NCBI RefSeq assembly: GCF_000003815.2
Contig: NC_049984.1
Coordinates: 11,220,718-11,284,717, forward strand
Direction: 5' to 3'
Length of the DNA stretch: 64,000 nt
Origin: Branchiostoma floridae
Lineage: Eukaryota > Chordata > Leptocardii > Amphioxiformes > Branchiostomatidae
Shown here: one piece after another, positions 10,149 to 50,414 of the stretch
Position numbering within the stretch: the first letter of the stretch is position 1
How the letters are laid out: the number at the start of each line of letters is the position of its first letter
The notes under the pieces: generated by a model
The model's input: the letters and a program-made list of their open reading frames with translations, nothing else
What the model was told of the DNA's origin: nothing
Databases searched by the model: none
Position numbers and translations under genes: made by a program

Positions 10149-12562
10149 TTTACGAGTATCTAAAAATCCGCTTGAGACTTTATCTAAAGATCCATTTGTG
10201 ACGTGCCCTAGGGCACACCACTTATCTTCCTGGACTTCATGACAAAATAAAGACGTACATACAAAATATTTACATACATGTCATGTTGCAGTTGACAGTA
10301 CAGCAATTGGTAAAATTATCAATTTCCTTGAATGAACTTGAAGATTGGGGTGATCTATGAGACTGTCTGACTTCTATAACTAAAATACAGCTTTTAAGAG
10401 CAAATATTCGCTCATATTGGCCTGTTGTTAGAGTATATTTGCATGGTTAGGCCCCATTCGCATATAAGTGAAATCTGAAGAGCAACATTGCTCTCAATTC
10501 GCACGCCAAAGCAACCATGATAGTACTCGTAGAAGTGGCTTAATGCATTATCTGACAAAAGAACTTCTACATCGACGCACTCAGAAAGGAAATCTAAGAG
10601 AGAACTGCTCCATTCATGCTCACCAGTTGCCCCATAGTGAAAAAATGAGACAGAAGAGAGAAGAACATTCTTGCCAGCTGCGCTGAAGAAGCACACAATA
10701 ATCCATACATTGTCTGATAAAGTCTACCGAAGATGCCCAGAGGAAATAGTTCGCAACCTCCGACGCTCGTAGTCAACTTTCCTTCCCTCCTCAGAGACTA
10801 TACGAGTAAACTAGTGTATCCCATTGTTATACAACCGACCTAGAGAAGTTTGATGATAATTCTGAAACTTAAAAGATGTACAGAATGTACGACCGGCATA
10901 CAATGACTTTTTGTTTGTTCGAACCTTAATTTATTGTTATTCACGAGAAGTTCACTACATGTAGGCCTGCAGGTCGCTTCACATCGATCCTAACCCAGCC
11001 CAACTGGCTATGATATCACCATTGCTACATTACAGCTAAGTCTGATGTGCTGAGCTAGAGATCCTTTCTTACATGCCACGCTACACACAGCACAGTGTAC
11101 CCTGGCCGGGGCCGTATATTTGCACTTCTTTTATTACTGTTATTATTTACGGAACATACATCATGGATTTTTCAATTACTTCTAGCTTTAAATGCTTATG
11201 GATCTATTCCACACAATCCACGAGTCGGGTATTTCAACACAGTAGTATTGTCAATCAAGTCTATATTCAATGTCGTATCAACGATGAAACGTTCGTACAA
11301 TGTCACTCAATGTGAAAAAAAAAACGAACCAGACAGGGTCCGCTTGGCAATGTGCTATTATCTCAGCGTCGGGTACTTTCAGAATCAATGACGGTACCGG
11401 TTAGATGAGATTCTAATAGCTTGAGATGTATGAGTGCACGGGAAAATAGACATAGCATGGAATTGAGTTCACATCAGAGGAACACGTCAATGAAATTTTA
11501 CCGCTTTTCAATCGGCAAAGATAAACGTTTTCACCGCACTTATTGGTCAAGCAAATATTATGGCTGCGAATTTTACCTCATTACAACAGAAGAGACGCGC
11601 AATCGGGACATCTCGCTCAATTCATGACCCAGAAATAATCCGATAAATGACATTTCATTGAACGTAACTTCATCAGGAGAAGAAACCCGTGGGTCGACAA
11701 CCTACTCCACCCTCCTCGCCCGCTTTGCGAGCGCCACAAATTAATCTGTCCGTCCTAAATGGACGCTTTGCTTAATGACACACGGCGCGTATACACTACA
11801 CGGGTAGTAAGTCATAATACTGACCGCCTAAAAACCAATTTATCGTGGTGCCATATCTGAGGATACCGTATTTAGCAGCGGGAATAGCTAGGTCTTTCAC
11901 TTACACAATGTGTGACAATGTAAATTGGACTATCTTTGGGGGCCATAGACTATACAAGTCCCTGCTATATCATATCCAGAATAGTACACTTTACGCCAAA
12001 TACTTTGCAAGTAGTATTGTAGCTACTGTATGTGTCCGTGAAGAATTACATTACATTACATACATTGTACGACCTGCTAGATCTACTATAGTCAGCCATC
12101 ACTAGCAACCTACTACGCATTGCAATAACGTATACAATTGTAGTATTGAAGAGGTGTTAGAGACTGTAATATGATGTTTGCATCAACTACTTATCTAATC
12201 ATCGATGCTTTCGGCTCTGAACGAGAGTTGATGAAAATGTTTTCATTGTAGATTTCGCCGACAGCTAGTAAGGTTGGCATTTGGCTGAGATGAAATGCTT
12301 TGTGAATCAATATCCTTTGATCGTTCATCCCACAACAAGGGGCTTCTTTCAAACCCATGTGCCTCTACGGCTGCCAGTAACCGTATATAAGACACCTGGT
12401 TGAGACGTTTATGGCATTAAATCAATGGCAATCATGATTATGAGTAGATAACGGGAAGGAGCATACAGCTCTGTTGTTGGCTGAATGTCAGCTACTATTG
12501 ACGTTCACTCCACTGTGAATTAGAAATAGCATTGTGAGTAAAAGAAATTGCGTTCAATTTAC
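10149..12562 (-). other. Reeler gene intron, right part; nothing recognised
   Basis: The first about 110 bp contain acaaaataaagacgtacata, which may be the tail of the LINE interrupted by the gap. The rest carries only short ORFs without recognisable domains. Confidence 0.4.
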
Positions 12563-12803
12563 CATGATAGGTCTTCCCTGTAAGGTATCCATCGACGCCG
12601 TTCCCCCAGTTGTCGGTAAGCTCGAGGCGGTATGCCCGGCTGGACGCCCCTGCTTTACCGTGGCCCGGAGTCAGGTCTTGGCAGGCGACCGACGGTGCTC
12701 CGAACGGGTACGCCCGCGAGTACCCGACGATGCCAACGAGGACAGCCCCGATGAAATGTAGATAGCTCCCTCCCGGGTTCTCTAGCGGTCTCAGCATCCT
12801 CAT
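12563..12803 (-). CDS. Reeler-domain protein, first coding exon with signal peptide
   Basis: Read from the minus strand, the exon has a hydrophobic segment LHFIGAVLVGIVGYSRA, a plausible signal peptide. It is followed by YPFGAPSVACQDLTPGHG and then YRLELTDN and YLTGKTYH. The P-x-GAP-x-x-AC-x-x-(M/L)-x-P-GH pattern is the classic start of a Reeler domain. The donor is CATG|GTAAAT (exon end 12563, phase 1), which joins in frame to the exon at 4886-5123. I took the start at the ATG at 12803 (MRMLRP); a second in-frame ATG six bases on, at 12797, is equally possible, and an upstream exon cannot be excluded. The protein should be secreted. A single Reeler domain behind a signal peptide is typical of insect defence proteins of the noduler type and of the N-termini of FRRS1-like proteins. 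Confidence 0.72.
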
Positions 12804-14956
12804 AGAAGCATGGCGTAAGTTCAACTAAAAGCAATGAACGTGTTATTTCACCAGCATCTGCGAGCATTAGCACTCCTACAAGCCTCTGTGCAATTGTCGC
12901 CGTGTTAAAACCACCAGCTGACATACAAGGAGTATAGCCTTAGACATGGTTCTACCTATGACATTGCAGAATGAAGATTTGGATGTTTTGAAGGCGTGGC
13001 TTCGTGCAGCCAGCCTGGTCTGATTGACGTCTAGCTGTAGTCAGGTGACCACCTCGTACGCGACCTGACTGAACAATAACGGCTATATAGCTGGGGCAAT
13101 GAAAGTCGAATTCACGCCGCAGGCCTGGCTTATGAAATTCGAGTAAAAAAACAGACCAGCAAATGAGGTTTTTGCGCCCCTGATTGGCTTTTTGTTTTGC
13201 TCTAACAACAATTAGATATTCGGTCATATTGAATATGTCATCATAAACCAAGAAGGTTTTAATAAGGGAAATGAAATGTTGATAAAACCATTGCAATATC
13301 ATGAACGCTGTGATACGAATTGTACTTCCAAAGATGAAAAACACATTCCATTCAATTCTATTTCTTATAATTTAATGTAATATACCACAATGTCTGAGCG
13401 GAACACGTAAAATGGATTCGACAACAAGATAAGAAATTAGCATATGCGACATGTGAGCTGGAAAGCCATAGTGCGCACATGAATACTTGATGTAGGCAAA
13501 TTCAGGGAATTTGTGAATGCAGTACGTGTGCACGTGATATTACGAATAAAGATGATTCCTTTGTTAGAGTAGTAAACACTCTCGAACCGGGACGGGGGGC
13601 TGTATAAACCTCCGGCAACCTTTGATCCATTGTTGACGTCACACGTGCAGAAAGTCACGTTTCCAGAGCTATGGGGTCAGATAGCGTATTTGGGCGCATT
13701 TTTGCGAGTCTCGATTTTTTAATTGGCAAACAAAAGCTTGAATTCTCTACAATATAATTTACCCACTCAGCTGAACTTTCAGGCGAAGATAGCTTCGGAT
13801 TTTGTATGAAGAATGGGAAGACAGAGAGCATCACTTTACAGACCTGCCTCGATATGAGTCTTTCTGTAAAACTCAATAAAACATGTTGAGACGTATGGGC
13901 AATATCGTTTTCCTGTACAAGCTATCACTTGTCACTGTCTTCCAGGACGAGATAAAATGTCAAGTGTTATCTGTCACGCTAAGGAACAATTTCCTGTTAC
14001 AATTGGAAACGCAGATAGTGACTTAAGCGATCCATACCTTACATCTCTACGTGGCAAGAATGTCAATGCCACATGAAGTTTGGGCATTAAACACTGCAGC
14101 CGTTATGACAAGGCTGGAAATTGGGGTCACCTTATAGAGATAAAAAGTTTCAATAGCCAATGTCATTGCAATAGACAAAGTTAACTTGTGGACGAATAAA
14201 GTACTTGGGACATTTTAGCTCGTTGGAAAGCAAGAGGTTCCAGTATGATCTATTTACCATGGAGATATTGGCAAGATTGTATTTCTGTAATGTCTTGACA
14301 AATATATGTTCGACTCAGAATGAAATTTTCTTTGTACTGAATAAAATAGTATTCGAGTCGATCTGCAAGTGGCGACCATTCATTCAAATTGATTGATTCT
14401 GCGAAGATGAGCACGCGTTGGTAGTTGGTGATGGAAGAACACAATGATTAAGAAATAGTTCTCATGCAATAAGTTTTAATTCTTTTGGGTAGCATGACAG
14501 AGAATACGTGATAAGATAACTGTGCAGAATATTTGACATTTGTCCATTTTTACTAGTAATTAGCCCACAACATCAGCATAACACATGTACCAACATGTCT
14601 GTGTTGCATACCCAAGGATTGTGCTGACTTTTACTTTTTTTTCTCAAGGCCAAAAACATATCAGTACCATTTTATTTCTACAATTTTCATTGATGTCTGA
14701 GCAGAGTAACATATGCAAAAGTCGGACGGTTTCTAAGGTACAGATTGTAGTTGATTTTTCAATAGCAATCTATATACTCCATTGTATTTTTGCATTGAGG
14801 TTTAAATTAATGGAAAGATGACATAGTTAAGACGAATTTATAGCAACGATAGATTTGAGATAAATTTTGTATTCTGCAAAGGGATCAGTTAGCCTGCGTT
14901 ACATAAACTTTCGCAGTGCTAATTGACAGGTCAGTAGGGCGGACAGTGAGCGCTAA
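12804..14956. other. Intergenic: between Reeler gene start and 3' end of the CARD/FN3 gene
   Basis: No coding region was recognised. A minus-strand AATAAA (plus ttttatttc, about 14669) lies about 285 bases beyond the stop of the CARD/FN3 gene and could be its poly(A) signal. A diverged repeat at 13561-13680 is listed separately. Confidence 0.4.
13561..13680. repeat. Diverged interspersed repeat, related to 18765-18890
   Basis: Both stretches share cgggacgg(a/g)ggg, then tata, an aac-tttga core, acgtca, and a ccagagc-at-ggg end in the same order. The similarity is patchy, so family and boundaries are uncertain. Confidence 0.3.
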
Positions 14957-15267
14957 TTAGTCAGGCTTGGCATCTGTAACCCCCGTCAAGGTAACGCTTT
15001 TCGAGGTTTTGCTCGCACTCTTTGCAAACAGCTTGATGGTGTAGGCTGAGTCAGGCTCCAGATCCTCGATCACGTACTCAGTAGCGAGTTGTGGCACCAC
15101 ACGTATCGGGGCAAGGAAGGGAAGACTCGTTCCTGACGCCTTTTCCTTGTACTGCAGGAAGTAGTCCTCCCAGGGGTCGTCCTCGACACGCCCAGGTTTC
15201 CATGACAGGGTTAGCGAGGAATCCGTCCTTTTCTTGATGGTGAGAAAGTCCGGATGAGCAGGAGCCC
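14957..15267 (-). CDS. FN3 5, terminal exon with stop codon
   Basis: Acceptor CCCTCAG before 15267, entering in phase 1, stop TAA at 14959-14957. It encodes APAHPDFLTIKKRTDSSLTL, SWKPGRVEDDPWEDYFLQYK, EYVIEDLEPDSAYTIKLFA and VTDAKPD. It is a diverged fibronectin III domain that lacks the PGSDGG block of the other four, suggesting it is the ancestral C-terminal domain rather than part of the duplicated array. Confidence 0.78.
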
Positions 15268-18200
15268 CTGAGGGTAGGTAGATGATGTGGTACTGAATAC
15301 AAAGCATCTGGTCAACTTCCCATAGATGTTTTGAACTTCAAAGAAAACGTTTTAGATTACATATGGTTCCACCCGAGACTAATTGTAACATCAGAATAAT
15401 GATGAAAAAATGATATATTGCGGCCATTATAGAGTCGCAATGAAATAGCATTATTAAGAAACTTCAAATCTCAACATGATCATATAACTTACATCTATGT
15501 ACATGACAACAGGGTATCATATGGGTGTGAAATAATTACCATTACTCAATGATGTAGGTATGAATGAGAGTGTAGCACAGAAATTTAAAATTGCGCCTAA
15601 TATCAACAATGCATTTACGAGGGGCGTGCAATTAGTAATGGTCCTGACCCTTTTCCCATAGCAGGAGATTAATGAAACTTGGCACAGTTATTAGTCTTTC
15701 TCTTCATAGGAATCACCCAGAGTTATGCATTTCTCCCATCGTTTGATGCAGCTCTGGACACCGATTTTGTAGGACACCCCAGGTTGGTCCTCCAACTGAT
15801 GCCTCATCAATGGCACAAGAGGGACGACCAGGTCTGGGAGCTGTTTCCACAGACTTCCAGCCACGTTTGAATTCAGGATGCCAGCGTTTTACAAGGTCAT
15901 ATGATGGGGCATCATCACCATAAGTTTCATTTATTTCATCAAAAGTCTTCTTTGGTGTGCGTCCTTTCAAATACAAAAACCGGATCACTGCGCGACACTC
16001 AACTGGTTCCATTTCACACCTGGTCCATTTCGCACCTGACTAAGTTCAAACACCAGTAAATCAGAAACCACAATTAGTTCAGAGCTGTCTTTTGCAACAT
16101 AACCCATAGAGATATGAATTATTACACATACAAAATTTCATTTAGATCAGACAACTGGAAGTGGGTCAGGACCATTACTTATTGCACGCCCCTCGTAATG
16201 TATAAAAGAGTGTTTGATAAAATCACAACTGGTTACCTCTTGTAGTTCCCTCGGCGTCTTGAGCCTGGTAGTCCCCTGGCCCTAGCTCATTCACTCCCCT
16301 TACTCTTACCACATACGTTGTGCTCTCCTGCAGGTCCTCAATCTGATGGTTGTTGACGTTCGATGTCTTGACTTCGATCGGCGGTGCAGTAAAGTTGTCA
16401 TCTCGGTCCTTGTCTCGATACGTGATTTCAAAGTATTGCTCAGACCCTCCGTCATATCCTGGCATCCAGCTCACGTTCAGCGCGTCGTAACAGTTGGATA
16501 TGAGGGTTACGTCTGTTGGAGGTGACGGTTTTTCTGAAAAAAAAAAGAGTTGAATGTTGTGTTTCGGGTTACGGTCCTGAAAAAATATGGTCAGGTCGCT
16601 CTTTTCTATTTACTAGTATCCCAGCCGAAGTTATCCAACAAAACATACAAACTCGCTATTGATATAAACATAGTCTAATCATTAACGAACAGATGCTAAA
16701 GGCACTTCTGTTTTACCTACTCACATATACGTAGCTTTGGCGCTGGAACCATAATCATGAAACAAATGAAATATCATGGTAAAGGGCAATAAAGAATATG
16801 TATAATGCCATGAAATCGATGCAGTATTTACGGATATATCAGTAAACGAAATCAAGTTGACTACAATAGCTAATTCAAATGTTACGGTGTTGTGTAACTG
16901 NNNNNNNNNNNNNNNNNNNNNNNNNNNNNNNNNNNNNNNNNNNNNNNNNNNNNNNNNNNNNNNNNNNNNNNNNNNNNNNNNNNNNNNNNNNNNNNNNNNN
17001 ACCTTTCCCAGAACACACAGGGGCCAGGAGGTTTGGATTGGTCTCTTCAAGTGCCGTCAGCAGTGCTCCGTACCCCTCATCACCCTATTAAGGTAAGACG
17101 TCTAGCAGGGCACAGGTGATTTCATTGGTTGACTTGCGAGAGCGGATCATCTTCGCCTCTGCTGGTTCCAGCACGCTGGCGTTGATGAGGTGGGATATGA
17201 CACCTTCTGGTAACATATTCTCCGCTGCTTCACTGCGCGCTTTCTTCAGCAGATCCTGATACCCCTTGGACATTGTCGGCCCAGCTACAAAATGAAAGAT
17301 AAGCAGTTAGAAATTAGAATGGCAAACAAAGTGTAAGGGCTAAAAGCTGTTACTTGTTTTTAGCTTGAACATTTTTATAATCTTGGTCAAATAACGAACA
17401 GTCATTTGCACATATGATACTTACCTTCATGAAAAATGAAGGTATTGTTTTTTGTCTCTCTCTCTCTTTCTTTCTCTCTCTCTCTCTCTTGTCTTTCTCT
17501 CTCTCAATGTGTGTTTGTGTGTGTGTGTGTGTGTATTTCTAGATATTTGTGACATTGGTATTGCAGTAGAACGTCTGGTTTTGTATCTTATGTCCTGGAC
17601 AGGCTTTGGTTTTGCTTCAAGGCTGACTTGATTAACTAGCTGCGTAATTGCGCGGACATTCATTATGCATATGATAAACAGGAAAAACGACTCACCACGT
17701 GTAGCGGCTTCTGTGTCTTGAGACTGAAACTCTCCTGGTCCTAAGACATTTACTCCTCTGACTTTCACGACATACACTGTGCTCTGCTCCAGTCCTTCTA
17801 TCAGATGGTTTGTGATGCCCTCTTCCTTCAGCTCAATGGTGTTTGGTGTAGTGCCATTTCCTTTCTTCTGGTAGACAATCTCAAAGTGCTGAACAGAACC
17901 TCCATCAGACCCAGGTGTCCAGCTCACATCCAATGACTCATGGGAGAAACATGTGACAGTTACGCCAGAGGGAGGGTCAGGTTTCTCTGAAAAGCAGTAC
18001 AGCAAACATTACGTTTAAAGCAGATGGAAGCCATGGCTTACATTACAATGAAAAGGCAATCACAGTACATAAACTTTTAAGCGCTGATGTGATCGTTAAT
18101 GATTATACACACGTCACTGCATGTATGTGCTTATCTTTACTGAGGGAAAACGTTGTCATTTTTTGCAATATTGACTTTTGCAATATAGACATGGATACGA

Positions 18201-21200
18201 ATGGATCAAGAAAAGTAATTGAACTCCGTGCTGGTGAAGACCACGTCTACAAGGCAGTGTACACAAGTTTCAATATCTTACCAACACCACGAAGCAAAGC
18301 ACTCAGGTAATCCTGTTTTGTCTCTTCCAGGAAAGATAACAGGCCGCTAAAAGCTCGGTCACCATTGTAAGGTAGACATTCAAGTAAGCGACGGACAACC
18401 GCTTTGCTCGACTTGTCGATGTGTTGCATATTTTCTCCCTCGATGGCCTCGATAGCGTTTCTTTGGATGAGGTAGTCCACCACATTCTGGTGCTGCATCT
18501 TATCCACTAAGGCAGCACTGTGTTTCTCCAGAATCTGCTGGCATTTCTCGGACATTGTCGGCTCAGCTATAGAGTGGTGGTTGATAGGAACATCAAGTTA
18601 ACTCTATGATATGTTTATCAGATCTGTCACCTATCACATAGCCGGCATGTTATACATATAAACACTCATGATACAATTAGCTCATATGATTTTACAAAAC
18701 AGACAGAATACTGAATCTTGTAAGTGAAGACATGAACATTACTAGCAGCATTAGCATGGAAGTAATTCTCTTAACCGGGACGGAGGGCGATATAGGCTTT
18801 CAACAAACTTTGACCGATCGCTAACGTCAAATGTTCATACAAGTCATGTGCCCAGAGCAATAGGGACATAGACAGGACTGAATAATTCAGTTGAAAATTC
18901 CATGTTTCAGTTTAGACTCTCTATGTTGATGAAGCAGTACAACACATTTTGTACTGACCTCTTGTTGCTGCTTCTGTTTCCTGGTACTGGCCTTCTCCCA
19001 TCACATTCACTCCGCGGACTTTAACGGTGTATATTGTTTGCGGCTGCAAGCTGTCAATGCGATGACTGGTGGCACCTTTCTTCATTTCAATGGGTGATGT
19101 GGCAAGGCCGCTATCTTCCTCCTTTCTGTGGCAAATGATCTTAAAATGCTGCTCGGCTCCTCCGTCAGATCCAGGCGTCCAGGAGACGTCAAAAGAGTCG
19201 TGCCGAGCAAACGTAACCATGACCTTAGCGGGTTGGTCGGGTTTCTCTGTAACATAAAGAGCAGCTTTTGTCAAAGTCCATTGAGTGGTAGACCTCTTAC
19301 AGAAGATTGAGCATTTATGGTCTGTTACAGACGTGCAACATTGCTTTCATTTCATTCTGTCACTATGTATAACCTCCTTGCCCCACACAGAGCATTGCTT
19401 GAGGCCTCTGCAATATACCTGGGGAGGGGCTCTACCTAGCTGTCAGCCAATCAGCGAATCGCATCAGGATCCTTTAGGTAAAGCGAATTATTTGATGGGC
19501 TGACAACTGGTTAAAGGCCACGCCCACAAACGTGGAAACCGCAGAACGGATTAGCAGGTCCTGCCCAAAAGGTATTAAACAGCTTAAGCAGAAGTAGATT
19601 TAGAATAGATGTTATTCCCCGTTCATCTGTAAATATCTTGTTCCTTCCTTGTTGAGTATACAATAATGTATACAACTTCCTTGTTGAGTATACAATCGTG
19701 TATACCACGCTGTTTGCAATTAGCCTTCGGGCATGAGCTTGCAATAAAGATTATCCACATGTAGGTCGCAGGCAAGGCTCTTATGCTTTTACAGTACTAG
19801 TGTGGCCTCCAAAGAATTTCTGATGTGACTCAATTGGTAGAAAATGTATTTCAGAGGAACTAGTACCTGATCCACACAGCAGAGCAGCAAGGTAAGGCTG
19901 GTTCGTGTCACGGAGAGCTGACAGTAGCCCCGTGTATGCCCGGTCCCCTTGGAATGGCAGAAGATCCAGCAAGGCCATCACGATGGCATCACGACTTGAC
20001 TGGCTGGTACGGATTTCTGTCGCCTGCTCGTCAGTGACGACCTGATCTTTAACAAGATGGTCGATCACCTTGTCGGGTTGCATCTTTTTCACCACTTCAT
20101 CTCGTTTCTTTCTTAAGATATCTTGATTGTGCTTCGACATTGTTGGCCCAGCTGTAAAAACAGTGACGGAGTAAAACATTTAAACTGATATCTAAACATT
20201 CTGATGGGATAGTATTGAATTGGATGACAGTCAATCGGCCGCTTGATAATATATCAACTTGTTTGTTTTATATCAAGATATAATCTGCTGTAACTTCTGA
20301 TAGGTAACCCATTTGTTAAATGTATCTAGAACATAGCTTATGCTTAGATCTACATGGATAGCCAAATAGTTACCAGCTAGCCAGCTAGCAAACTAGGTAG
20401 CTAGCTACATGTTGATAGATTTTGCAAACCTTGTGTTGTTCCTTCTGCGTCTTTGTATCCCCCTGGCCCTAAATCGTTCACTCCACAGACTCTGACGGTG
20501 TACGTGGTGCTCTCCTGTAAACCGGTGATTTGGTAGCTCGTGACGCCTGGAGGTTTCACCTCATGTGGCATACTAAAGTTGCTGCTACCCTTCTGACTGT
20601 ACGAGATTTCGAAATGCTGCTGGCAGCCTCCATCGGATCCGGGTGTCCAAGTAATATTCAACGACTTGGAGGACTCAGATTTAACTTTGACAAGAGTTGG
20701 TGGATCCGGCTTTGCTGCAAAGTGCAATTTCTTTCAGTTAATATACGCAGGTTAGGACCAGTTTGTTAAGCAGAGCTAAAGTAAGCTGAATATCGATTTC
20801 CATGCATACACTTGTGGTATGAGTGTCCCTTCCCTATTCCTCTTTTTTACCTCTTATCTCGCCAAAGTAAACAGGATCAAAAGTATAGCTACAAACACAG
20901 ATAGGTTTAAAAGTACGAGGCCATCCAATTCCAGTATGTGATAGAATAGGATGAGGAATACCTGAAAATAGGAAGTGATCATACAAATGGCAATAATACA
21001 GTTGTACTCAAAATGGCATCGAGTAAATTTTGCATTTTACTAAAGCCTTTCGACATTTTCAGATTTAGAGGTCCTGACATGTATGATTTCGTGGTACAGC
21101 AAAACATATGAATTCTCACCTTTCCCCTGAAGCAAAGCGGCGAGATACCCATGCTTTGTCTCTTTAAGCACTTCAACAAAGATATCGAACGCCTGGTCGT

Positions 21201-23358
21201 CTTTATACGGTAATTTATCCAATAGGGCAGCGACTTGCTTCGTTTTAGTAGGTTGCGTATTTCGAATTTCTTCCACCTCGTCTGCATCAAGTACCCATTT
21301 CTGAATGAGATAGTCCATCACTTCTTGTGGTTGCATGTTGTTCATAATCTCAATACGATTGTTTATCAGCAACCGTTGGTTAGCACTGCTCATCTTTGGT
21401 TCACCTGCAAAATATGAATGAAGACCTCTATTGTACGCTTATGCCCTTACAATCTCTCTCTCTCTCTTTCTCTCTCTCTCTTTCTCTCTCTCTCTCCATG
21501 TCTAAACATAGGATCAAAAATTAAAATTTGACTTACGTTTTGTAGACGCAGTTCCTGGTCCCTGTGAAAACAGAATCATTATTTGGTTATTATCTATCAG
21601 GACCATTATGAACATATAATTCATAATTGTGACTGTCAATGGTTACTTACGTTCTTTTTGCATTCAATCTGCGCAGCAAGTACTCAAATACCATGCACAC
21701 CACTCAATAAAGGGCACACTATTTTGACAGAAGATGCATTGCCACCCTTACCAATATCTCTTTTGGCAAACAGACTTCCATCTTTAGGAAACATTCATCA
21801 TGAGCTGTCTTCCTCTTGTGAAGTTTTGTGTCTCCACTACCTGCCTGGTCTTCTCCCTGGCTAGGCCACTTAAAAAGTATGTTCGTTCTTGGTTCCTGGG
21901 TGGTGTCCACAACTTTAACACTGGTTTCGGTGTGATTATTCCTTTTCTTCGAATGGAAGGTAAACCACAAACTGTCCTCAATTCCCTCCTCATCACGGGG
22001 TTTCACGTTACCAGAGAATTCTATGTAGAACTTCTCCCCTTCCCGGATGAAGATGTCTTTACTAGGTCGTTGAAACATCTTGTATCCATCTTCTTTGAGA
22101 TCTTTCGCCTCACCACGTGTTTTGTCATTGAGACAGCATCCAACATAAAGCTGGACATTATCAGGGTTTTCGTCATTGTAGAATATCAGCATGTTGACGT
22201 TGAAGATGTGCCTGTGCAAGAAAACTCGACCAAAAGCCGCTGCCAATCCTTGCAGATGCTTAGCAAAGATTGTGATGTACCTGCAGTGAAAAGAAACAAC
22301 AGCAATACATTGATAAATGTGGCAGAAGTGCTCTATTCAAAGTATTATTTGTTCAGCGGCATTACCACTGAAGGCTTTCTGGAGATCATCACATTCAGTC
22401 ATGATATATGGTGCATCCATACAAATGTAATACTTGCAATACTGGTATGACACACTACGTACACTTGCATGTACATGTAGTTGTAGCTGTATCAAATGAT
22501 CTACATCTTGGAACTGTATATCCAGATCCAGAAATACTCACCCAGCAGTTTCCAACTTTTTCACTTGACATTTCACACTCCCTCCGTCCCGGTCCCGTTT
22601 GGGTTCCAAGCTATCTGTCACGTCGTTCCATTCATTATCGTGGCTGTCCTGCAAGATCCTCAATTCATCATCATCATCGTCATCACCGTCACTTTGCTCC
22701 TGCAATAGTGTTGGAGCTGGCAGCTGTAGTTCCACTGGGCGACTTGTTTCTATGCTCTCGTCGTTGCCCTCTGGTCCGGTTACTTTGACTCGCAGGACAG
22801 CACCAGCGGACTGTACGAGCTTACACTCATCCTCGTGCTTTTGTGCTCGTTTTGTGGTTGACTCGTCTACTGGAAGGATCTACGGGAAATTACAAGGGTA
22901 AAAGTAATCATAAGTTATTACCTTCAGAGTCCTACTTGTGATTGTATCAACAAGCTCTACATACCATCCGAAAACCAGAAAAAGATTTGGATCTCCTCAT
23001 TGAAATAGTCGTGAGAAGGGTAAAGAAATATATCCTGAAAATGCAAAAGACTAGATAAATCCCCACCTCGAGGACTACTTTCATGTCATTTGAAGCGTTC
23101 TCCGGTATCTTGACAGATGCTCTTGGATCGGCAGTTGACGTCAGTTCGCCGCCAGAAGAACCAACAGTGAACGTATCCGTAAGTGGTCTGGACAGGACAG
23201 CGAAGCACGACAACTGCGCTAAGTCTGCCACAACATATGGCTTGGGCTGTAAGAAATAAGAATAAGGCATTGCATTCATCAGTGCCTCTCAAAGTTTATT
23301 CAATAATTTGGATTGGCTGTTCAGCAAGCATAGGCAGAACCGCCCTATCAGTCTGTTG

Positions 23359-23423
<65 letters not shown>

Positions 23424-26298
23424 GTTTCCTCACTCGCATTTCAAAGTTTGAGTATATTGCTTCAACATGAAAAGGGAGGTACAGACTTACTTTCTCGGTT
23501 TTGAAAAAGAATTCCCAGGTCGGATGTCCCGTCAAATGTTTGCTTCCTACGTTCACTGCCACGAGCCTCCGTGACTCATCAGGATAGACTTGGTCATGTG
23601 GGAACTTCACGATGCACACTTGGTCAGGGGATAGCTCGCCTGCAATATGTCTGAAGTCGAAAATGTCACTGATGAGCTGATCTTCTTCGTCAAGCTTTAG
23701 TTTAACGTTGTTAGGGTTGATGATTTTCGGAGGGACGACGAGCCATTGATGGTGCTCCGGCTGGTACAGCCTGATGTTTGTAGAGAGTTGGAGGAGGTCC
23801 TCCTGAAAGGCAGAAATGTTTTTTTTTTCGATTAAGACACTTTCTAAAACATTTCACAGCTTCTCCGGGTTAGCCCAACGTACACATGATATAGATATAG
23901 TGGCATTAGTCGTGTACAATGCTGGGACATTAGTCTTGCACATAAAACATGAAGATGTGACGAAAAGAACGTTTGTGTCCTCACCTCCAGGTTACGCTGT
24001 ATTGCACGACTCTCGTCAAGGAGACAGTGGACGGCGGCCCTGTATCCACGCTCGGACATGATGTCTAATGCAGTTTTCCCTCTCTATAAATTATGACAAA
24101 TATATACAAATGATATAGATGCAAAATACAAATAGGCAGACCAAAAACGATACCTCCACGTGAATAAATATTTCCTCCTATGTACTTTTCGGTCATGTCT
24201 GACTAATTACTATTTCTATCAACTCTGACTCCAACAAATCTGACCTTCCGCCTGACATGTTTGTACACAACTGTACACATACACCAAGACAAACACAATT
24301 CAAACATACCTCGGAGGTAAAAAGTTAAGTCTATATCTGTCAGTTAATTTGTTGTTGTTAATCTGTCAATTATTTTGTTGTGATGGTTGTTGTTAATCTT
24401 CCCATTGAATCTATTTATGTAATATAATTATCAGTCAGAACATGGATACTAGTAGCTCATAGGCAAACCGATTGTACCTGGCATAGTCAAAATAGTATCT
24501 AATATGTTAAAGCCTGACAAGCAAACAAGAAAGCAACAAACTATTGTTACATTAGGCCGTATTATGATTTGATATTTTTCTTTTTATTTTCTCGCACTAC
24601 TGCCATGGTGCTTTAACTTTACAAACTTCACTTCACAACATTTGACGTACACCGTCTTTTCCTCCAACGTTCACTCCAGCTCGCACTAGAAGTTGCATGA
24701 TCTGACGATGGTCCCTCTCGCCCCTTTCGGACGCCTCGTGCAGTGCGCTTCGGAACTGCAGTAATACACACGAAGTTAGACAATTTACGATTCATTTAAC
24801 ACAATTCTAAATGCTTACTGTGAAGAACAGCATATTTGAATTAACCTGGACACAATGATCACTCGTAATTGTTATTAATTACCATGTTATGTTATGTTAC
24901 GACTATAAGTATCGCCATGATGAAATGATGTTCAGTACCATCCACTTGTAAACAACCTCTCAATGACATAACTCCATAACTGTGCGGGCGTAGCCATTGA
25001 AACAATTTCCTGCTTGTCAGAGCCAAACCAGACTTCCAATTCTCCGAGTATCATATTCACTGATGACTCACACAAGGACAGTACCTCCATTTACAAAAAC
25101 ACACACCTGAACTGCCGGCTCAGCACTGCTGGCAAGCATGTTGACGTCCGCTCCAGCCTGGAGCAGTAGTCGCACTATCTCGACATCCCCAAGGAAGGCC
25201 GCGCGATGTAATGGTGTTTTCTTAGACAAGTACAATCAGAAAATAAATATAAGTATGCAAAGAGGTCTAATAAATGTAGGTCTAAGACTCATTGGTATCA
25301 ATTTTTCTATTACTCGTATGATTACTTCTTGAATCGTAGTCGGATCATAGCTTTATAGAGAGAGGGAGAACTTTGTTGCACGACAATTGTACATGGTACA
25401 ATCACTCATGAGTCAACAGCAAGCGACGATAGATTCATTGATAATTATGTATAAGATAGATCTAATAATAGCATAGATTTTTACGCTTTATTGCTTTGTA
25501 TCTACCCTGTTTCACTATTATACTGGTAATGATATTTTACCTTGAATCTTTGATAGTAGAACTACTGCATTTAGCCCATGTGGACAAGAACATTCAAATG
25601 ATCATTCATTCATTCAAATGAACGATCATGAAATAAAACAAAACGGTTACCCCAAATGGATCGTAAAAGTTGACATTTTTCAGGCGTTTAATCCAGTGAT
25701 GGGTGTCCTGTACGTTTCGTGACGTCACAGCATAAAGTAGTTGTACTTCGCCATGCGCCTTCGAAAGGTTGTGAGCCTTTTCCTCCGATTCTTTCAATTC
25801 CCTCTCTCTGGAATCTCTCGAAGCCTGTTTAGCCATTAATGGAAATACAAAAATAACTCAACATGTCAAAGATATTAGTAACAATGTTTGCCTGCATCAA
25901 CAAGGCGCAGTAACAGGTCGTAGGTCGTCGTACGATTTTGATGTCGTACGATTTCCAAACAGGCTGCGACGGAACCAATCGCCGACAAGGATCTAAGACA
26001 GCCTTTCCTGTAGCAGTACAGGTGAGTTTATATACGGAACATATGCACAGTTTGTCCCAGTGGATCCATAGCAAAGCTGGAAAACCCAGGTTGTGTTAGA
26101 TACTAATGTACATGTACAAAAGGTTACAAGGCATGCAGACGGACTGTGTGGTTCTGCAACAGTTGCCTATTTACATTCCGATTTGATTCACACACACATA
26201 TACACACGCACTAACTCCTTGTAGTTCACCATGTCATGACTATGCAAACATTACCGATAGTTCAAAGGTCATGATGTTGCACTTACCCCAGTGCCCAT
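14957..26298 (-). CDS. ANK-ZU5-UPA-(CARD-FN3)x4-FN3 multidomain protein, 19 exons
   Basis: I assembled this minus-strand gene from GT-AG sites with matching phases. Exons: 26298-26287, 25824-25651, 25220-25107, 24755-24651, 24083-23985, 23802-23491, 23246-23067, 22879-22542, 22280-21752, 21561-21537, 21404-21120, 20714-20430, 20151-19867, 19246-18959, 18566-18282, 17986-17696, 17284-17003, 16533-16237, 15267-14957. Together they give 4,497 nt, 1,499 codons including the TAA at 14957. Approximate order by residue: ankyrin repeats 63-168, a pre-ZU5 region 169-290, ZU5 about 290-400, UPA about 450-620, then CARD/FN3 pairs 630-1395 and a last FN3 1396-1498. No transmembrane segment or signal peptide is seen, so it is probably cytosolic. 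ZU5-UPA with ankyrins or death-fold domains is known from ankyrins, UNC5 and PIDD. CARDs mediate homotypic assembly. A signalling scaffold is therefore likely (inference). In-frame TAA TAG in CARD4 breaks the model as assembled. Confidence 0.78.
15618..16195 (-). mobile_element. Internally deleted mariner element in the last intron
   Basis: Terminal inverted repeats of about 33 bp (left from cgaggggcgtgcaatt, right ending cacgcccctcg) differ at one position and are flanked by TA on both sides (15616-15617 and 16196-16197), the target duplication of Tc1/mariner elements. Read from the minus strand, the ORF 16012-15713 starts MEPVECRAVIRFLYLKGRTP and continues with DAPSYDLVKRWHPEFKRG and APRPGRPS, the helix-turn-helix DNA-binding half of a mariner transposase. 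The sequence then jumps to a C-terminal-like piece (MGEMHNSG, with stops). The catalytic D,D,D region is missing, so the 578-bp element is non-autonomous. Confidence 0.85.
16237..16533 (-). CDS. FN3 4 exon
   Basis: A 297-nt exon, phase 1-1: KPSPPTDVTLISNCYDALNV, SWMPGYDGGSEQYFEITY, TTYVVRVRGVNELGPGDYQA and EGTTR. Fibronectin III signature, slightly diverged at the WTPGSDGG block. Confidence 0.8.
16901..17000. other. Assembly gap (100 N, probably arbitrary size)
   Basis: It lies in the intron immediately after CARD4; the donor GT is at 17002-17001. An extra module pair could be hidden here. Confidence 0.95.
17003..17284 (-). CDS. CARD 4 exon, interrupted by TAA TAG
   Basis: A 282-nt exon, phase 1-1: GPTMSKGYQDLLKKARSEAA, GVISHLINASVLEPAEAKMI and CALLDVLP. 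Two adjacent stops follow (17090-17085), then the frame continues as GDEGYGALLTALEETNPNLL and PVCSGK to the donor. In the other copies the two stop positions are Y-K, F-Q and Y-N. One point change each could produce the stops: TAY to TAA and CAG to TAG. Everything else is intact. The stops lie about 85 bases from the edge of an assembly gap, so sequencing error is a real option. If true, the protein would end at about residue 1267 and lose FN3 4 and 5. Confidence 0.75.
17456..17533. repeat. TC/GT-rich microsatellite
   Basis: Short tct-rich and gtgtgt runs in the intron after FN3 3. A similar CT run lies at 21451-21496. Confidence 0.8.
17696..17986 (-). CDS. FN3 3 exon
   Basis: A 291-nt exon, phase 1-1: KPDPPSGVTVTCFSHESLDV, SWTPGSDGGSVQHFEIVY, VYVVKVRGVNVLGPGEF and EAATR. 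Fibronectin III signature. Downstream intron sequence includes TC-, GT- and CT-rich microsatellites (17456-17533). Confidence 0.8.
18282..18566 (-). CDS. CARD 3 exon
   Basis: A 285-nt exon, phase 1-1: EPTMSEKCQQILEKHSAALV, VVDYLIQRNAIEAIEGENMQ, RRLLECLPYNGDRAFSGLLS and YLSALLRGV. Complete CARD with the LP-Y-x-GD-R-A motif. Confidence 0.8.
18765..18890. repeat. Diverged interspersed repeat in the intron between CARD3 and FN3 2
   Basis: Shares the ordered motifs cgggacgg, acgtca and ccagagc-at-ggg with 13561-13680. The family is unknown. Confidence 0.3.
18959..19246 (-). CDS. FN3 2 exon
   Basis: A 288-nt exon, phase 1-1: KPDQPAKVMVTFARHDSFDV, SWTPGSDGGAEQHFKI, TIYTVKVRGVNVMGEGQY and EAATR. 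Fibronectin III signature, closest to FN3 3 by eye. Confidence 0.8.
19490..19760 (-). repeat. Intronic retroelement 3' end, same family as the LINE at 6946-7720
   Basis: The intron between FN3 2 and CARD2 carries gcaattagccttcgggcatg followed by a gcttgcaataaa end (about 19707-19747) in plus orientation, opposite to the host gene. This matches the 3' UTR of the LINE at 7663-7700. A 30-bp direct repeat (cttccttgttgagtatacaa twice, 19645-19695) lies just before it. The left boundary is uncertain. Confidence 0.5.
19867..20151 (-). CDS. CARD 2 exon
   Basis: A 285-nt exon, phase 1-1: GPTMSKHNQDILRKKRDEVV, DKVIDHLVKDQVVTDEQATE, then MALLDLLPFQGDRAYTGLLS and YLAALLCGS. This is the best consensus copy of the CARD in the array. 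Confidence 0.82.
20430..20714 (-). CDS. FN3 1 exon
   Basis: A 285-nt exon, phase 1-1. It encodes KPDPPTLVKVKSESSKSLNI, then TWTPGSDGGCQQHFEISY, TYTVRVCGVNDLGPGGY and EGTTQ. The conserved Trp in strand B, the Y-x-V-x-V pattern of strand F and the N-x-LG-x-G turn identify a fibronectin type III domain. The WTPGSDGG block is almost identical in FN3 2 and 3. Confidence 0.8.
21120..21404 (-). CDS. CARD 1 exon
   Basis: A 285-nt exon, phase 1 at both ends, encoding one complete six-helix CARD. It starts EPKMSSANQRLLINNRIEI; later motifs are VMDYLIQKWVLDADEVEEI and AALLDKLPYKDDQAFDIFVE, ending YLAALLQGK. The LLxxLP-x-x-D-x-AF block is the usual CARD helix 4-5 signature. It shares an internal methionine five codons in (21393) with the other three CARD exons. 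Confidence 0.8.
21537..21561 (-). CDS. 25-nt microexon linking UPA to CARD1
   Basis: Minus strand: acceptor TTTTCACAG before 21561, donor GTAAGT after 21537. It encodes GPGTASTK plus one base. It changes phase from 0 (end of the UPA exon) to 1 (start of CARD1), which is exactly what the frame needs. The CT-rich repeat at 21451-21496 sits between it and CARD1. Confidence 0.65.
21752..23802 (-). CDS. ZU5 and UPA domain exons of the multidomain gene
   Basis: Exons 23802-23491, 23246-23067, 22879-22542 and 22280-21752 splice in phases 0, 0, 0, 2 and 0. The first encodes a lead-in with HHQWLVVPPKIINP and DQVCIVKFPHDQV. The second contains LAQLSCFAVLSRPLTDTFTV and then the ZU5 start VGSSGGELTSTADPRASVKI with PENA. 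The third completes ZU5 and has an acidic linker (DGDDDDDDE). The fourth has UPA-like sequence with VFLHRHIFNVNMLIFYND and VQLYVGCCLNDKT. ZU5-UPA tandems form a supramodule in UNC5, PIDD and ankyrin. The HFS autoproteolysis motif of PIDD is not seen. A 216-aa plus-strand ORF over the UPA exon (21800-22450) is antisense. Confidence 0.72.
23361..23419. repeat. (AT)n microsatellite
   Basis: About 59 bases of uninterrupted alternating A and T in the intron between the two exons preceding and starting ZU5. Confidence 0.95.
23985..25220 (-). CDS. Three ankyrin-repeat exons of the multidomain gene
   Basis: Exons 25220-25107 (38 codons), 24755-24651 (35) and 24083-23985 (33) are all phase 0 at both ends. 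They carry ankyrin signatures: KTPLHRAAFLGDVEIVRLLL with QAGADVN; SALHEASERGE with QLLVRAGVNVGG; and GKTALDIMSERGY with AVHCLLDES. The second exon ends KDG and the third starts RGKTAL, a canonical repeat junction. Nothing else of known type is in the introns (24084-24650, 24756-25106, 25221-25650). Confidence 0.8.
25651..26298 (-). CDS. Start of the multidomain gene: MGTG exon plus N-terminal helical exon
   Basis: Minus-strand ATG at 26298 gives a four-codon exon, MGTG, followed by a strong donor GTAAGT. The next exon (25824-25651) starts after AACAG and runs in phase 0: ASRDSRERELKESEEKAHNL, then a segment ending FYDPFG at the donor GTAACC. The charged start could form a helix; the second part is a degenerate lead-in to the ankyrin repeats. 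Alternative starts exist: the ATG at 25836 (MAKQAS), if the exon is read through its acceptor, and a separate first exon at 27042-27101. Confidence 0.6.
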
Positions 26299-31030: not shown

Positions 31031-31199
31031 GTAAGTTCTTTAAAATTATTTCTTCCCAACTACTCGTGCGTCGTGTACCTTTCTCTGCACTTGAAAAATA
31101 CATTATAATAATGTAGCTTGCGCGCGTGTATATATTGTGTTCGGGGAGTAATAGAGGCGTTTATTTCAGGCACCCTTGTTGCGACACCCACGCACTTCT

Positions 31200-31808
31200 A
31201 TGGAATGCCTCCACCACACACACCGGAACAAGTGGGAAACTACGGTGGCTACCCGACAGGGCATGACAACTACGGGCCTGGACAGGAGCACGGACTTCGA
31301 TCTTCAGAGACTAAGCCGGGCGGTGCACTTGCTGGAGGCTTGCGGGTGGTATTGGGGCTCCATGACGGGCGAAGAAGCAAAGAGATTACTACGGTGGAAA
31401 GAAGTCGGGACTTTTCTACTTCGCGATAGTAGTGACTCTGCTTACTTGTTCTGTATCAGTGTGAGGACCGCCAGAGGCACAACAAGTGTTCGAATCGACT
31501 ACACCCCGGAAGGGAACTTTCGGCTGGATTCGGACGGTAGCTCGCCCGAATATGACTGTGTAATAAAGCTTGTTCACCACTACATGAAGGACTCGAACGC
31601 GGAAAACCCCAAACATTACTGGCTAGAGCCCACGGGGAGAAGGGCGATCGCGGTGAAGTTTTCACGACCACTTGTCGGGAAGGTGACCGACCTGCAACAC
31701 CTGTGTCGGACGGTGATCAACAAGCATACCCCCGAGGACCGCGTCACACAGCTTCCCTTACCGGAACGGCTCAAAACATATCTAAGAGACTACCCTTACG
31801 GACAATAA
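31200..31808 (+). CDS. SOCS2/CISH-like suppressor of cytokine signalling
   Basis: One exon encodes 202 aa from the ATG at 31200. Residues about 48-140 are an SH2 domain: CGWYWGSMTGEEAKRLL, then the phosphotyrosine-binding FLLRDSS with Arg75, LFCISVRT and FRLDS. Residues about 157-202 form a SOCS box: LQHLCRTVINKH and LPLPERLKTYLRDYP. The WYWGSMT start and the position of the SOCS box at the extreme C-terminus match SOCS2 and CISH rather than SOCS4-7; the length is also that of SOCS2. Such proteins bind phosphorylated receptors and recruit an elongin-cullin ubiquitin ligase to damp JAK-STAT signalling. A splice acceptor, tttatttcag, at 31169 suggests an upstream 5' UTR exon; the open frame upstream of the ATG lacks another Met. 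Confidence 0.92.
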   Translation: MECLHHTHRNKWETTVATRQGMTTTGLDRSTDFDLQRLSRAVHLLEACGWYWGSMTGEEAKRLLRWKEVGTFLLRDSSDSAYLFCISVRTARGTTSVRIDYTPEGNFRLDSDGSSPEYDCVIKLVHHYMKDSNAENPKHYWLEPTGRRAIAVKFSRPLVGKVTDLQHLCRTVINKHTPEDRVTQLPLPERLKTYLRDYPYGQ

Positions 31809-47700: not shown

Positions 47701-50414
47701 CAAGAATACAGGCAAGGGAAAGAGTGGAAGTTAGGGGAATGTTTGGGCAGTGGCACCTTTGGAGAGGTTTATAAGTGCGAGTCACTATCAACAAGAGAGC
47801 ATTATGCAGTGAAAAAGGTAAAGGTGAAAAAGGAAGACTGTATCATAATTGATTAAGCAATGATTTTTATTTTTGTCATTTCTATGTTGTGATTTATTTG
47901 CAATACTTATCACTTAGATCTACTGCTGTTTGTTTTATTTCATTAATTGATGAAGGTAATGTTCATTTTAATAATACATAAGGAAAATTTACATAACTTC
48001 TGCATATATTGTTTGGCTGTAATGCAAATGCAGTTAAGTGTGAAATTATAAGCTAGGGGGTGCACTTGTGTTTATCAATTGTGGTGATTCCCCAGGTTCC
48101 TACTACTTCTCCTGATGGACAGGAAAGGCCAGGGTGGGCAAGATTGGAGGAGATTAAACTATGGCAGAAGCTGGGCAATCATCCCAATGTGTGCGAGCTG
48201 TATGGGGTGACATATGAAGACAAAGCGTTCTGGTTCCATATGGAACTTGTGAAATTTGGTCAGTTTTATGTTTTGTTTATTTCAGTTGTACTTACAAACA
48301 TGTTGTTAGCTGATTGGAAACAAGCTTTTCAATCAGCCCTGAGTAGTGAAAGAGTTATCAGAATACTGCTAACTGATAGCCTCTGTGATGCGGTCTGCCT
48401 AAACACCACAAACGACCACAAACAACCACAAACGACTCTAATAAGCAGTGCATATGGGACCTTATGTGACGCACTGGAGACAAAGTTTATACATTTAATA
48501 TGATTTATGAATTTCAAAAATTTAACAACTCCTACGTATTCACGAGTTATTTCGAGTTAGTCCGCTGGTTTCAAGATGGAAGCAATTCTTGGCCGCCTGT
48601 TGGATCACCTGTGCTACTGGAGTCTGCATGGGGAAGTTCTTGATACCTTCCTCAGCTCCATAGACGACAGGGCGATAAAACTATGGAAGCTGTTGGGTAA
48701 TAGATTATAGCATGCCGCAATTCTGTCGTTATCAACTTATAAAACTTGTATACTAAGTGTTTTTCAGCCTCAAATGCAAGCAAGCACGATCCAACATCAT
48801 GGTGGCCAATAATTGCTTTAATCTTGAAACCGGACTAACTCAAAATACATGTAACTGGTAAATACGTAGGACTTGCTGCGTTTTTTTAATAAATGTATGA
48901 ACAATGTCTCCAGAGCGTGTTGCCATATAAATTGCATATTAGAGTCGTTTGTGGTGTTTAGGCAGACCCTCTGTGATGCATACATCTGTAGCATACTTTG
49001 GGTCATTTGGTAGACATGTTTAGAACTTTGAAAAATGCCACTCAAATTATCAAATTCTTCAAAACACTTTTTGACTTCAGCTGAGGATCCTGCACCCAAC
49101 CTGCCTGCGTATGTGACCAACCTGAATCCCAATAAACAGATCCCAATAGTGGGTTTACTGAAGGCAGGAGGAGGACTGTTTGAAGGACTTGGCTACATGC
49201 ACCAGCAGGAGAGCACACATAGAGACCTATCAAATGGTAGTTATTAGTGATGTTCTAAAATTTTTAAATAATGTCACTGAGTTATGATATGTTTTGCAGA
49301 ATATTTTGCAGAATATTTGATTATGTCTATAACATGTATATACATGTATATATATTGGTACAAATAGCACTCTCTCAGAATTACCAATTCAACAGTGCGG
49401 TAGTACTCCTGAGAACTTTGAGAAGTGTAGGAGAGTTACTCAGGGCTTGATATATATCAAAGTGGTTAGTGAATATATTATTAACATTGCATCTCACATG
49501 ACATGATAGTTTGTGTTGATATTTTGTATTTGCAGTCAGTCACATTTGATGATATGCTTATCTATTACAAACATTTTTCCTTTCTTTCATTTTTATGTGA
49601 CCTTTGTCCTCAATTGCAGCTAAGAACGTCATGGTGGGCACTGGATTCCAACTTAAGATCATTGACTTCTCCTTCATCCGTACTGCCACTGAAGACAAAC
49701 ACTTTGATAAAGACCTGAAAGGAGGACTAGCCTGCTTCTTCCAGCTGGTAACAAGAAAGAAGAAGGACCCCGACAACTGGACAAGCAAAGCTTTGGAAAA
49801 CTGCTTAAAGGTAAGTCTACACAGATTTCATTTTTTGGATGACATTCGCTCATTACTTTTTGGCTAAAAAAAGACATCAGAACTCATGACTGTGCTGACC
49901 CATAATGCCCCCAAAAGACCAACTTGGGGGGGGGGGGGGGAATGCCTAAAAATTGATGCACACGCAGATGTCATCCATGTCATCAAATCAACATGGCCTA
50001 AGTACACAAGATATGTTCATAACTACCAAGTTTTGTGAAATCTTTGCAGGTATGGAACTGAATGCTAAGAGTAGTACAAAATGAACATATACAGCAAGCG
50101 TTCAATTAATTGGTTGGATATAGATAGATGTATATATACTATCATCAAAGTAGCCCATTATATTGTTATTACCTAATGGGGGTCAAGAACAGGCCTGCAT
50201 TTTAACAGAGCTGTATTATATTTTGTTCTTGTTTTTTTTAAACCTTAAGGACAAAGGCGATGTGCAACTGTTGCTGCCACTGTGCCAACAATTGATATCC
50301 CATCTGGACTATCCCAGCGGCAGAGCGATCAATGTTGCAAGGTGGATGGCAGAGGATATAAACAGATGGCTTGCTAACATTCTGCTTGAAACCCAAGGGG
50401 TAAAGCATAATTAA
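44751..50414 (+). CDS. Protein-kinase-like protein with an unusual catalytic core, seven exons
   Basis: Exons 44751-44806, 47042-47474, 47686-47817, 48096-48258, 49081-49236, 49620-49810 and 50250-50414 join in phase (1,296 nt, 431 aa). Residues 1-163 are acidic and low in structure (MAERNMAQKVHFHEDEG, many D/E/S). The kinase domain begins around residue 170: Gly-loop GSGTFGEVY 184-192, beta-3 Lys in AVKK (about 206), alpha-C Glu in LEEIKLW (about 225), HRD 308-310, and the metal-binding Asp in IIDFS (329). Odd points: DFG is DFS, HRDLSNAKN has one extra residue before the Asn, and the segment from DFS to the helix-F-like DLKGG is only about 18 residues with no APE motif. The EYRQGKEWKL lead-in recalls NIK/MAP3K14, and the short activation segment recalls RNase L-type kinase folds; neither is secure. 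It may be a weak kinase or a pseudokinase. Confidence 0.78.
45467..46520. mobile_element. GC-rich element with four internal tandem units in kinase intron 1
   Basis: The ends agagctttgtacgggt and, inverted, a segment including aaacccgtgtac and cacagctct are imperfectly complementary. Inside, a unit starting ccctctgaaacgccatttcc and continuing cctg(t/c)attttgaggg and caaattttgc starts near 45661, 45847, 46045 and 46233 (spacing about 186-198 bp). It is preceded by GC-rich hairpins such as gggccgaaggccc and gtcgcgccagaggcgcgac, and ends with gggggcaacgcccccac-type palindromes. There is no coding capacity. Confidence 0.6.
47412..47615 (+). repeat. Source of an intragenic duplication (end of kinase exon 2 plus intron 2)
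   Basis: From cagtgccgtagtactcct through the exon 2 donor and into intron 2, ending at tttttatgtgacct. It is copied at 49393-49603. Confidence 0.85.
48381..48980. repeat. Large inverted repeat in kinase intron 4
   Basis: The left arm (about 48381-48614) and right arm (about 48778-48980) are inverted copies. Both contain gtctgcctaaacaccacaaa, a tcctacgtatt segment, gagttagtccg with ggtttcaagat, and a gttggatc end. Each arm read in its own direction shows VCLNTTND ... ALETxFIHL and YVFTSY. This suggests two head-to-head copies of one mobile element. The transcribed intron could form a long hairpin. Confidence 0.7.
49393..49603 (+). repeat. Duplicated exon 2/intron 2 segment in kinase intron 5
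   Basis: About 85-90 percent identical to 47412-47615. It has a 3' exon end encoding CRRVTQGLIY and the same gttagtga donor, but an insertion near its start. It has no obvious acceptor in frame, so it is probably a non-functional copy. It ends 16 bases before the acceptor of exon 6. Confidence 0.8.
49926..49940. repeat. Poly-G run (15 G)
   Basis: A homopolymer in the last intron of the kinase gene; its length may be unreliable. Confidence 0.9.

Follow-up and report, generated by a model that had tools for sequence, protein, structure and literature searches.

A minus-strand gene of the amphioxus Branchiostoma floridae, located at positions 26298-14957 of the analysed window (64,000 nucleotides of contig NC_049984.1, positions 11,220,718 to 11,284,717; all coordinates below are those of the window), encodes a protein in which ankyrin repeats (ANK) and an ankyrin-type ZU5-UPA body are followed by four CARDs in alternation with FN3 modules and by a fifth, terminal FN3. 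This architecture is real and kept in three amphioxus species; it appears to be undescribed and constitutes a variant of the ZU5-UPA death-fold scaffold. ZU5-UPA bodies precede death-fold domains in ankyrins, UNC5, PIDD and NLRP1/CARD8.

Gene model and domain content

Rebuilding the exon model from the sequence yielded the same exon number, outer limits and totals as the original prediction, namely 19 exons whose frames are compatible from first to last, with GT-AG borders at 18 of 18 introns. The coding length of 4,497 nt corresponds to 1,498 codons and a stop, the predicted figure of 1,499 codons having included the latter. CARD and FN3 take turns over exons 11-18, which measure 282-297 bases and all have phase 1-1. 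This is the mark of a two-exon unit multiplied in tandem; being symmetrical, these exons can be skipped without a frameshift.

The full domain order is held by two single-gene models, P0001 from B. lanceolatum (1,495 residues, database name SDK1) and P0003 (1,492 residues), which comes from a B. floridae x B. belcheri hybrid and groups with B. belcheri models. The annotation of a B. floridae x B. japonicum hybrid divides the locus into P0002 (920 residues, ANK to CARD2) and P0067 (575 residues, FN3-2 to the end), identical to the window model at 897 of 914 and 552 of 575 residues, respectively, and jointly covering 1,489 of its 1,498 residues. The claim that the ankyrin-type and the CARD-FN3 exons belong to one gene is supported by the first two models, and the split annotation of this hybrid counts against it. 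P0004, a B. belcheri model, is fused to a neighbour and lacks some parts. By eye, a coding piece at 12498-12824 on the minus strand resembles its C-terminal extension, which points to preserved gene order and to P0004 being a fusion model; the piece matched no Pfam family and is, we assume, Reeler-like.

In Pfam scans of the window exons, CARD1-3 all scored above the curated cut-off, as did fn3 in each of the three FN3 exons tested out of five (E values in the table), and matches to Ank (5.6e-17) and UPA_2 (6.7e-7) were obtained as well. UPA followed by CARD was found in exons 9-11 and in the homologous models; P0001 and P0003 contain four CARD and five fn3 stretches each, and P0067 two CARD and four fn3 stretches. 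Profiles thus bear out ANK, UPA, CARD and FN3, with ZU5 the one predicted domain of the head that Pfam did not recognise. No Death domain match was found up to E 0.1 in P0001, P0002, P0003 and P0067, and at the same threshold no NACHT, leucine-rich repeats (LRR), NB-ARC, WD40 or caspase domain was listed for these four models; CARD1 alone gave a sub-threshold Death match of 13 bits.

For the head (453 residues), a phmmer search against solved structures revealed that residues 118-413 are colinear with ankyrin-3 (whole-sequence E 4.2e-11) over the end of the first ZU5, the second ZU5 and the UPA, with weaker matches to ankyrin-2 and -1. This colinearity makes ankyrin-type the best label for the head, although its first ZU5 is unproven. 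The head probably holds two ZU5-like parts; apart from this correction the predicted domain order survives testing. Recognisable ankyrin repeats number about three, in stretches within about residues 34-158, and 168 residues precede the ZU5 part. An NCBIfam search with the head gave no match. The AlphaFold model of P0002, built from 5 sequences, has a mean predicted local distance difference test score (pLDDT) of 42.6 and is useless for the head. Its first 50 Foldseek matches were ankyrin-repeat chains by title or recall, mostly designed, and its VIA structure list contained CARD chains, ankyrin-repeat chains and one designed protein; because the model is too poor, the lack of ZU5-UPA chains in both lists carries no meaning.

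Conservation and distribution of the CARD-FN3 array

Across the three species, CARDs at the same position share 64-80% identity and CARDs at different positions 30-50%, the corresponding values for FN3 being 68-84% and 23-62%. In trees, CARD1, 3 and 4 as well as FN3-2, -4 and -5 formed clades by position with bootstrap values of 98-100. Conservation by position and these clades suggest that the array probably predates the split of the three species and that each unit has remained distinct, an argument for different jobs. Codon tests inside the array were uninformative, as dS (synonymous divergence) was at least 1.5 or undefined in 12 of 12 pairs. CARD1-3 carried amino-acid differences to the hybrid models more often (13/285) than did FN3 (9/481, p 0.04) or FN3 and head combined (16/1110, p 0.004), an exploratory count from one allele pair with several tests, in which the hybrid haplotype is assumed to be B. 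floridae.

Protein searches covered 5.8 billion proteins, each search scoring approximately 8,000 candidates, those that shared most exact 5-residue words with the query and were 0.55-1.75 times as long, a setting in which remote relatives or those of other lengths can be missed. Among the candidates scored, the architecture was found in Branchiostoma gene models only. A query with residues 1-1105 of the window protein gave 66 matches. Five are members of the family; the remaining 61, for which ankyrin families are listed, cover 3-17% of the query. Among these 61, a hake protein (P0048) lists both ANK and CARD (PF00619), but matches 12% of the query and has neither UPA nor fn3 listed. In a second search all five matches, the query included, were from Branchiostoma; in a third, five of eight belonged to the family and the other three were FN3 proteins with no CARD listed. 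The original assertion that no characterised protein has this arrangement has so far held, and among the open-licence papers listed none describing the protein was found; an amphioxus gene catalogue, for example, may already mention it.

When the head was searched against its own genome (513-Mb, 431-contig assembly), the four matches at E up to 0.01 were all exons of the gene itself; since this search missed the true amphioxus ankyrin, it excludes close copies only. CARDs are common in the genome, with 149 matches scored. Clusters of them occur on contigs C5, C6 (the contig of the window), C12, C13 and C158, and some open frames hold two. Each of 20 ten-kilobase CARD neighbourhoods matched the CARD profile of the gene and none matched its FN3, ZU5 or UPA profile, compared to five FN3 matches in the window; as profiles derived from the gene are family-specific, ordinary FN3 domains near other CARDs could be missed. 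A megablast search with exon 11 against phages returned no match.

Proposed function and competing explanations

We propose, at what we regard as roughly even chances, that the protein is a cytosolic adaptor, probably tethered by a myristoyl group, whose ankyrin-type body and rod of four CARDs with FN3 modules would seed the assembly of CARD partners. The N-myristoylation pattern consists of an N-terminal G2 and permitted residues up to position 7, and the MG[TS]GAS start fits it in five of six sequences (the window, P0001, P0002, P0003 and P0005), the differing N-terminus of P0004 lying outside the fit. By hydropathy neither a signal peptide nor a membrane span was detected, the highest 19-residue values being 1.22 for the window, 1.43 for P0001 and 1.11 for P0003. 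Taken together, the myristoylation fit and the lack of such stretches suggest that the FN3 modules should be cytosolic.

N-myristoylation would hold the adaptor at the inner face of the membrane, where its predicted ANK-ZU5-ZU5-UPA body would attach to a membrane or cytosolic target and gather the protein into clusters, with the four CARDs, spaced by FN3 modules, standing where ankyrins have a death domain. Once clustered, the four differing CARDs would be displayed so as to seed or draw in partners that bear a CARD themselves, the likeliest being initiator caspases and adaptors of the Apaf-1/caspase-9/RAIDD type. This group is our best guess for partner candidates; the CARDs tested matched it best in sequence and in fold, Apaf-1 being best by fold; the predicted CARDs fit Apaf-1 better than CARD8/NLRP1, and RIG-I and MDA5 were also among the structure matches. 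Self-association of the UPA is possible on the model of NLRP1 and CARD8, whose UPA subdomains are described in the available text of PMC7794386 to cluster flexibly linked CARDs, lowering the threshold for filament formation; a UPA body held at a membrane might do likewise with four CARDs on every chain. The originally suggested multivalent CARD platform with FN3 spacers is a reasonable idea, and the unlike, position-conserved CARDs favour a platform that serves different partners over one built from equal copies. For amphioxus, the accessible part of PMC3196919 reports at least 45 caspase genes, 18 of them related to caspase-9 and -2.

The arrangement shares elements with several known systems. 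The order of ZU5-UPA and then CARD is that of NLRP1 and CARD8 (FIIND-CARD), which differ by their SF/S motif, whereas the amphioxus protein has no NACHT or LRR listed and four CARDs with FN3 spacers. With Apaf-1, caspase-9 and RAIDD it shares CARD likeness, but not their NB-ARC, WD40 and caspase domains. RIG-I, MDA5 and NOD2 also carry multiple CARDs, two per chain and adjacent, compared to four separated by FN3 here. PIDD1 (LRR-ZU5-ZU5-UPA-death domain), a scaffold for caspase recruitment, has two ZU5 parts and a UPA ahead of a death-fold domain, as is predicted here, and is set apart by description, with LRR in place of ANK, a death domain in place of CARDs and an HFS motif that is missing here. 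Closest by the head are the ankyrins (AnkR/B/G), in which ankyrin repeats precede and a death-fold domain follows a body whose second ZU5 and UPA are colinear with ours; unlike them, the amphioxus protein has about three repeats rather than 24, CARDs for the death domain, FN3 modules and the MGTGAS N-terminus. The available text of PMC5135030 gives the ankyrin architecture as ANK24-ZU5-ZU5-UPA-DD (DD, death domain), calls the ZU5-ZU5-UPA cassette specific to true ankyrins and mentions an analysed Branchiostoma ankyrin in which no death domain was found. As far as can be told from that text, this ankyrin, which has long exons, is a different gene.

Two competing explanations concern the gene itself. 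Following the B. floridae x B. japonicum annotation, the locus might comprise an ANK-ZU5-UPA-CARD-FN3-CARD gene and a separate CARD-FN3 neighbour, as P0002 stops after CARD2 in a short tail of six residues, the counterpart of a cryptic terminal exon in intron 13 (GPANPF..., window 19560 downwards on the minus strand), P0067 starts inside FN3-2, and both are listed on contigs of 26,755,091 bases. We consider two genes quite unlikely, because a start amid an FN3 exon is expected of a split model, the exon phases agree across the 13/14 junction, the two proteins jointly account for almost the whole window model, and P0001 and P0003 are single; a shorter isoform ending after CARD2 is possible. The gene could also be decaying in B. 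floridae, with CARD4 broken and the polypeptide ending there. The two predicted stops (one TAG, one TAA) are indeed present, adjacent and in frame; before them CARD4 reaches 20.4 bits, below the Pfam cut-off of 23.9, and read through them 35.9 bits. Decay would be in line with the divergence of CARD4 from P0067 (11 differences in 94 residues, the highest among the domains compared) and with the single place of exon 17 DNA in the genome. It is nevertheless highly improbable, given that CARD4 is intact in all five other models that include it (P0001, P0003, P0004, P0005 and the near-identical P0067), that the frame runs on past the stops to the normal end, and that three differences fall no more than 34 bases, the nearest no more than 19 bases, from the assembly gap in intron 17. 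Because exon 17 adjoins this gap and CARD4 is intact elsewhere, the stops are probably a local allele or a sequence or assembly fault rather than a loss. Further CARD-FN3 units may lie inside the gap in this assembly; both full-length orthologues carry exactly four CARDs.

Other explanations accept the gene and assign it a different role. An ankyrin-like structural or trafficking adaptor, with CARDs and FN3s as inert or structural binding modules and no caspase or immune role, would account for a head that is nearest to ankyrins, whose own death domain is of uncertain function according to the available text of PMC5135030. FN3 also serves as a spacer in many cytosolic structural proteins. We regard this role as unlikely in view of family-level CARD matches at all four positions in P0001 and P0003, of CARD identities that are distinct and position-specific in three species, and of an ankyrin repeat number that is low for membrane-protein binding of the ankyrin type. 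An autoproteolytic sensor like PIDD, NLRP1 or CARD8, in which self-cleavage of the ZU5 and removal of the N-terminal part would release UPA and CARDs, would agree with the CARD8/NLRP1-like domain order and with a serine at the ZU5-cleavage position, within an AQLS[CW]F site whose QLS is found in six of six sequences; a match to Peptidase_S68 (PIDD) at this site, in one of three members scanned, is not significant (E 0.12). In the available text of PMC3210808, the cleavage motif is SF/S in CARD8/NLRP1 and HFS in PIDD, and UNC5b has a leucine (Leu-677) for the phenylalanine. The same replacement in the amphioxus QLS makes release by self-cleavage less likely, and we consider such a sensor very unlikely. 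Finally, FN3 similarity and the database names of P0001, P0005 and P0067 would suggest a cell-surface adhesion receptor of the sidekick or receptor tyrosine phosphatase kind, an idea we hardly credit at all. Hydropathy speaks against it, neither a protein kinase nor a tyrosine phosphatase catalytic domain is among the Pfam matches of four models, CARDs, like ankyrin repeats, are modules of the cytosol, and the three other FN3 proteins matched list no CARD. The FN3-based names (sidekick-1, FNDC3B, RPTP delta) were hence rejected as descriptions of function; a Pur_ac_phosph_N match in Pfam likewise falls on the FN3 modules.

Several observations weigh against the adaptor proposal and the gene model beneath it. 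A three-species head profile, despite an overall E of 9.7e-13 against ankyrin-3, divides the match into residues 116-173 (weak, 0.025) and 301-425 (5.9e-7), the P0001 counterpart of the first ZU5 part alone found no PDB match up to E 10, no reliable alignment was obtained for this part, the seat of the spectrin-binding motif in ankyrins, and the ZU5-UPA part is unfolded in the P0002 model (pLDDT mostly 20-37). In the trees there was no CARD2 clade, FN3-1 was left unresolved and FN3-3 reached only 91/91. The absence of a second copy comes from a head search that never reached the true ankyrin gene, the closest genome is the one that annotates two genes, and P0005 is without CARD1, so that CARD number may vary among isoforms or models. 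Likeness to Apaf-1, RAIDD and caspase-9 identifies no partners. A caspase-9-like basic residue in CARD2, compared by eye, was dropped because it is not kept in all orthologues.

Feature positions, neighbouring genes and meaning

Table 1. Exons of the gene in the window, with predicted content and supporting evidence.
Feature	Position	Strand	Predicted content	Evidence or remark
Exon 1	26287..26298	-	MGTG	joined to exon 2 gives MGTGAS, N-myristoylation consensus
Exon 2	25651..25824	-	charged N-terminal stretch reaching first ankyrin repeat	helix 6-38 in low-confidence P0002 model
Exon 3	25107..25220	-	ankyrin repeat 1	Pfam and exon model
Exon 4	24651..24755	-	ankyrin repeat 2	Pfam and exon model
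Exon 5	23985..24083	-	ankyrin repeat 3	Pfam and exon model
Exon 6	23491..23802	-	first ZU5-like part, weakest assignment	position ahead of ankyrin-like second ZU5
Exon 7	23067..23246	-	first ZU5 end (AQLSCF site) and second ZU5 start	ankyrin-3 colinearity from head residue 118
Exon 8	22542..22879	-	second ZU5	within colinear ankyrin-3 stretch
Exon 9	21752..22280	-	UPA	Pfam UPA_2; ankyrin-3 5.9e-7 over corresponding stretch
Exon 10	21537..21561	-	short linker	exon model
Exon 11	21120..21404	-	CARD1, phase 1-1	Pfam CARD 1.7e-19; PDB RAIDD 2.9e-5, Apaf-1 4.1e-5
Exon 12	20430..20714	-	FN3-1, phase 1-1	Pfam fn3 3e-15
Exon 13	19867..20151	-	CARD2, phase 1-1	Pfam CARD 2.3e-15; caspase-9 CARD 0.0014
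Exon 14	18959..19246	-	FN3-2, phase 1-1	exon model; five fn3 stretches in P0001 and P0003
Exon 15	18282..18566	-	CARD3, phase 1-1	Pfam CARD 1.9e-11; procaspase-9 9.4e-4
Exon 16	17696..17986	-	FN3-3, phase 1-1	Pfam fn3 7.2e-13
Exon 17	17003..17284	-	CARD4, phase 1-1	two in-frame stops side by side; assembly gap (N at 16901-17000) two bases away
Exon 18	16237..16533	-	FN3-4, phase 1-1	exon model; fn3 stretches: five in P0001/P0003, four in P0067
Exon 19	14957..15267	-	FN3-5 and stop	Pfam fn3 9.9e-13

A possible alternative first exon, MADAEHGDVSVGIGSTTNVK, lies at 27101-27042 on the minus strand, and the GT right after it is in phase 0, which fits exon 2; it is used in none of the five homologous models covering the N-terminus. 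Intron 18 contains a fragment of a Mos1-type transposase helix-turn-helix at 15716-16039 (minus strand). On the plus strand, an open frame with SH2 and SOCS-box at 31155-31805 represents a SOCS-type gene, and two weak kinase-like pieces below the Pfam cut-offs (48057-49864), as well as open frames with ankyrin repeats within 56091-60378, belong to other genes.

An extended form of the adaptor proposal, which we put forward tentatively and consider rather doubtful, is a membrane-bound death-fold platform in which a rigid rail of non-equivalent CARDs would nucleate several CARD pathways, their number being tuned by exon skipping; one clustered molecule may then nucleate both apoptotic initiator caspases and immune adaptors. 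With an ankyrin-type body that carries CARDs and is without the known cleavage motif, the gene is a natural system for asking whether clustering by UPA is enough to drive CARD signalling, and likewise what four different, rigidly spaced CARDs do. If the proposed role is true, caspase recruitment would be tied to the membrane scaffold of ankyrins in a basal chordate whose caspase set is expanded.
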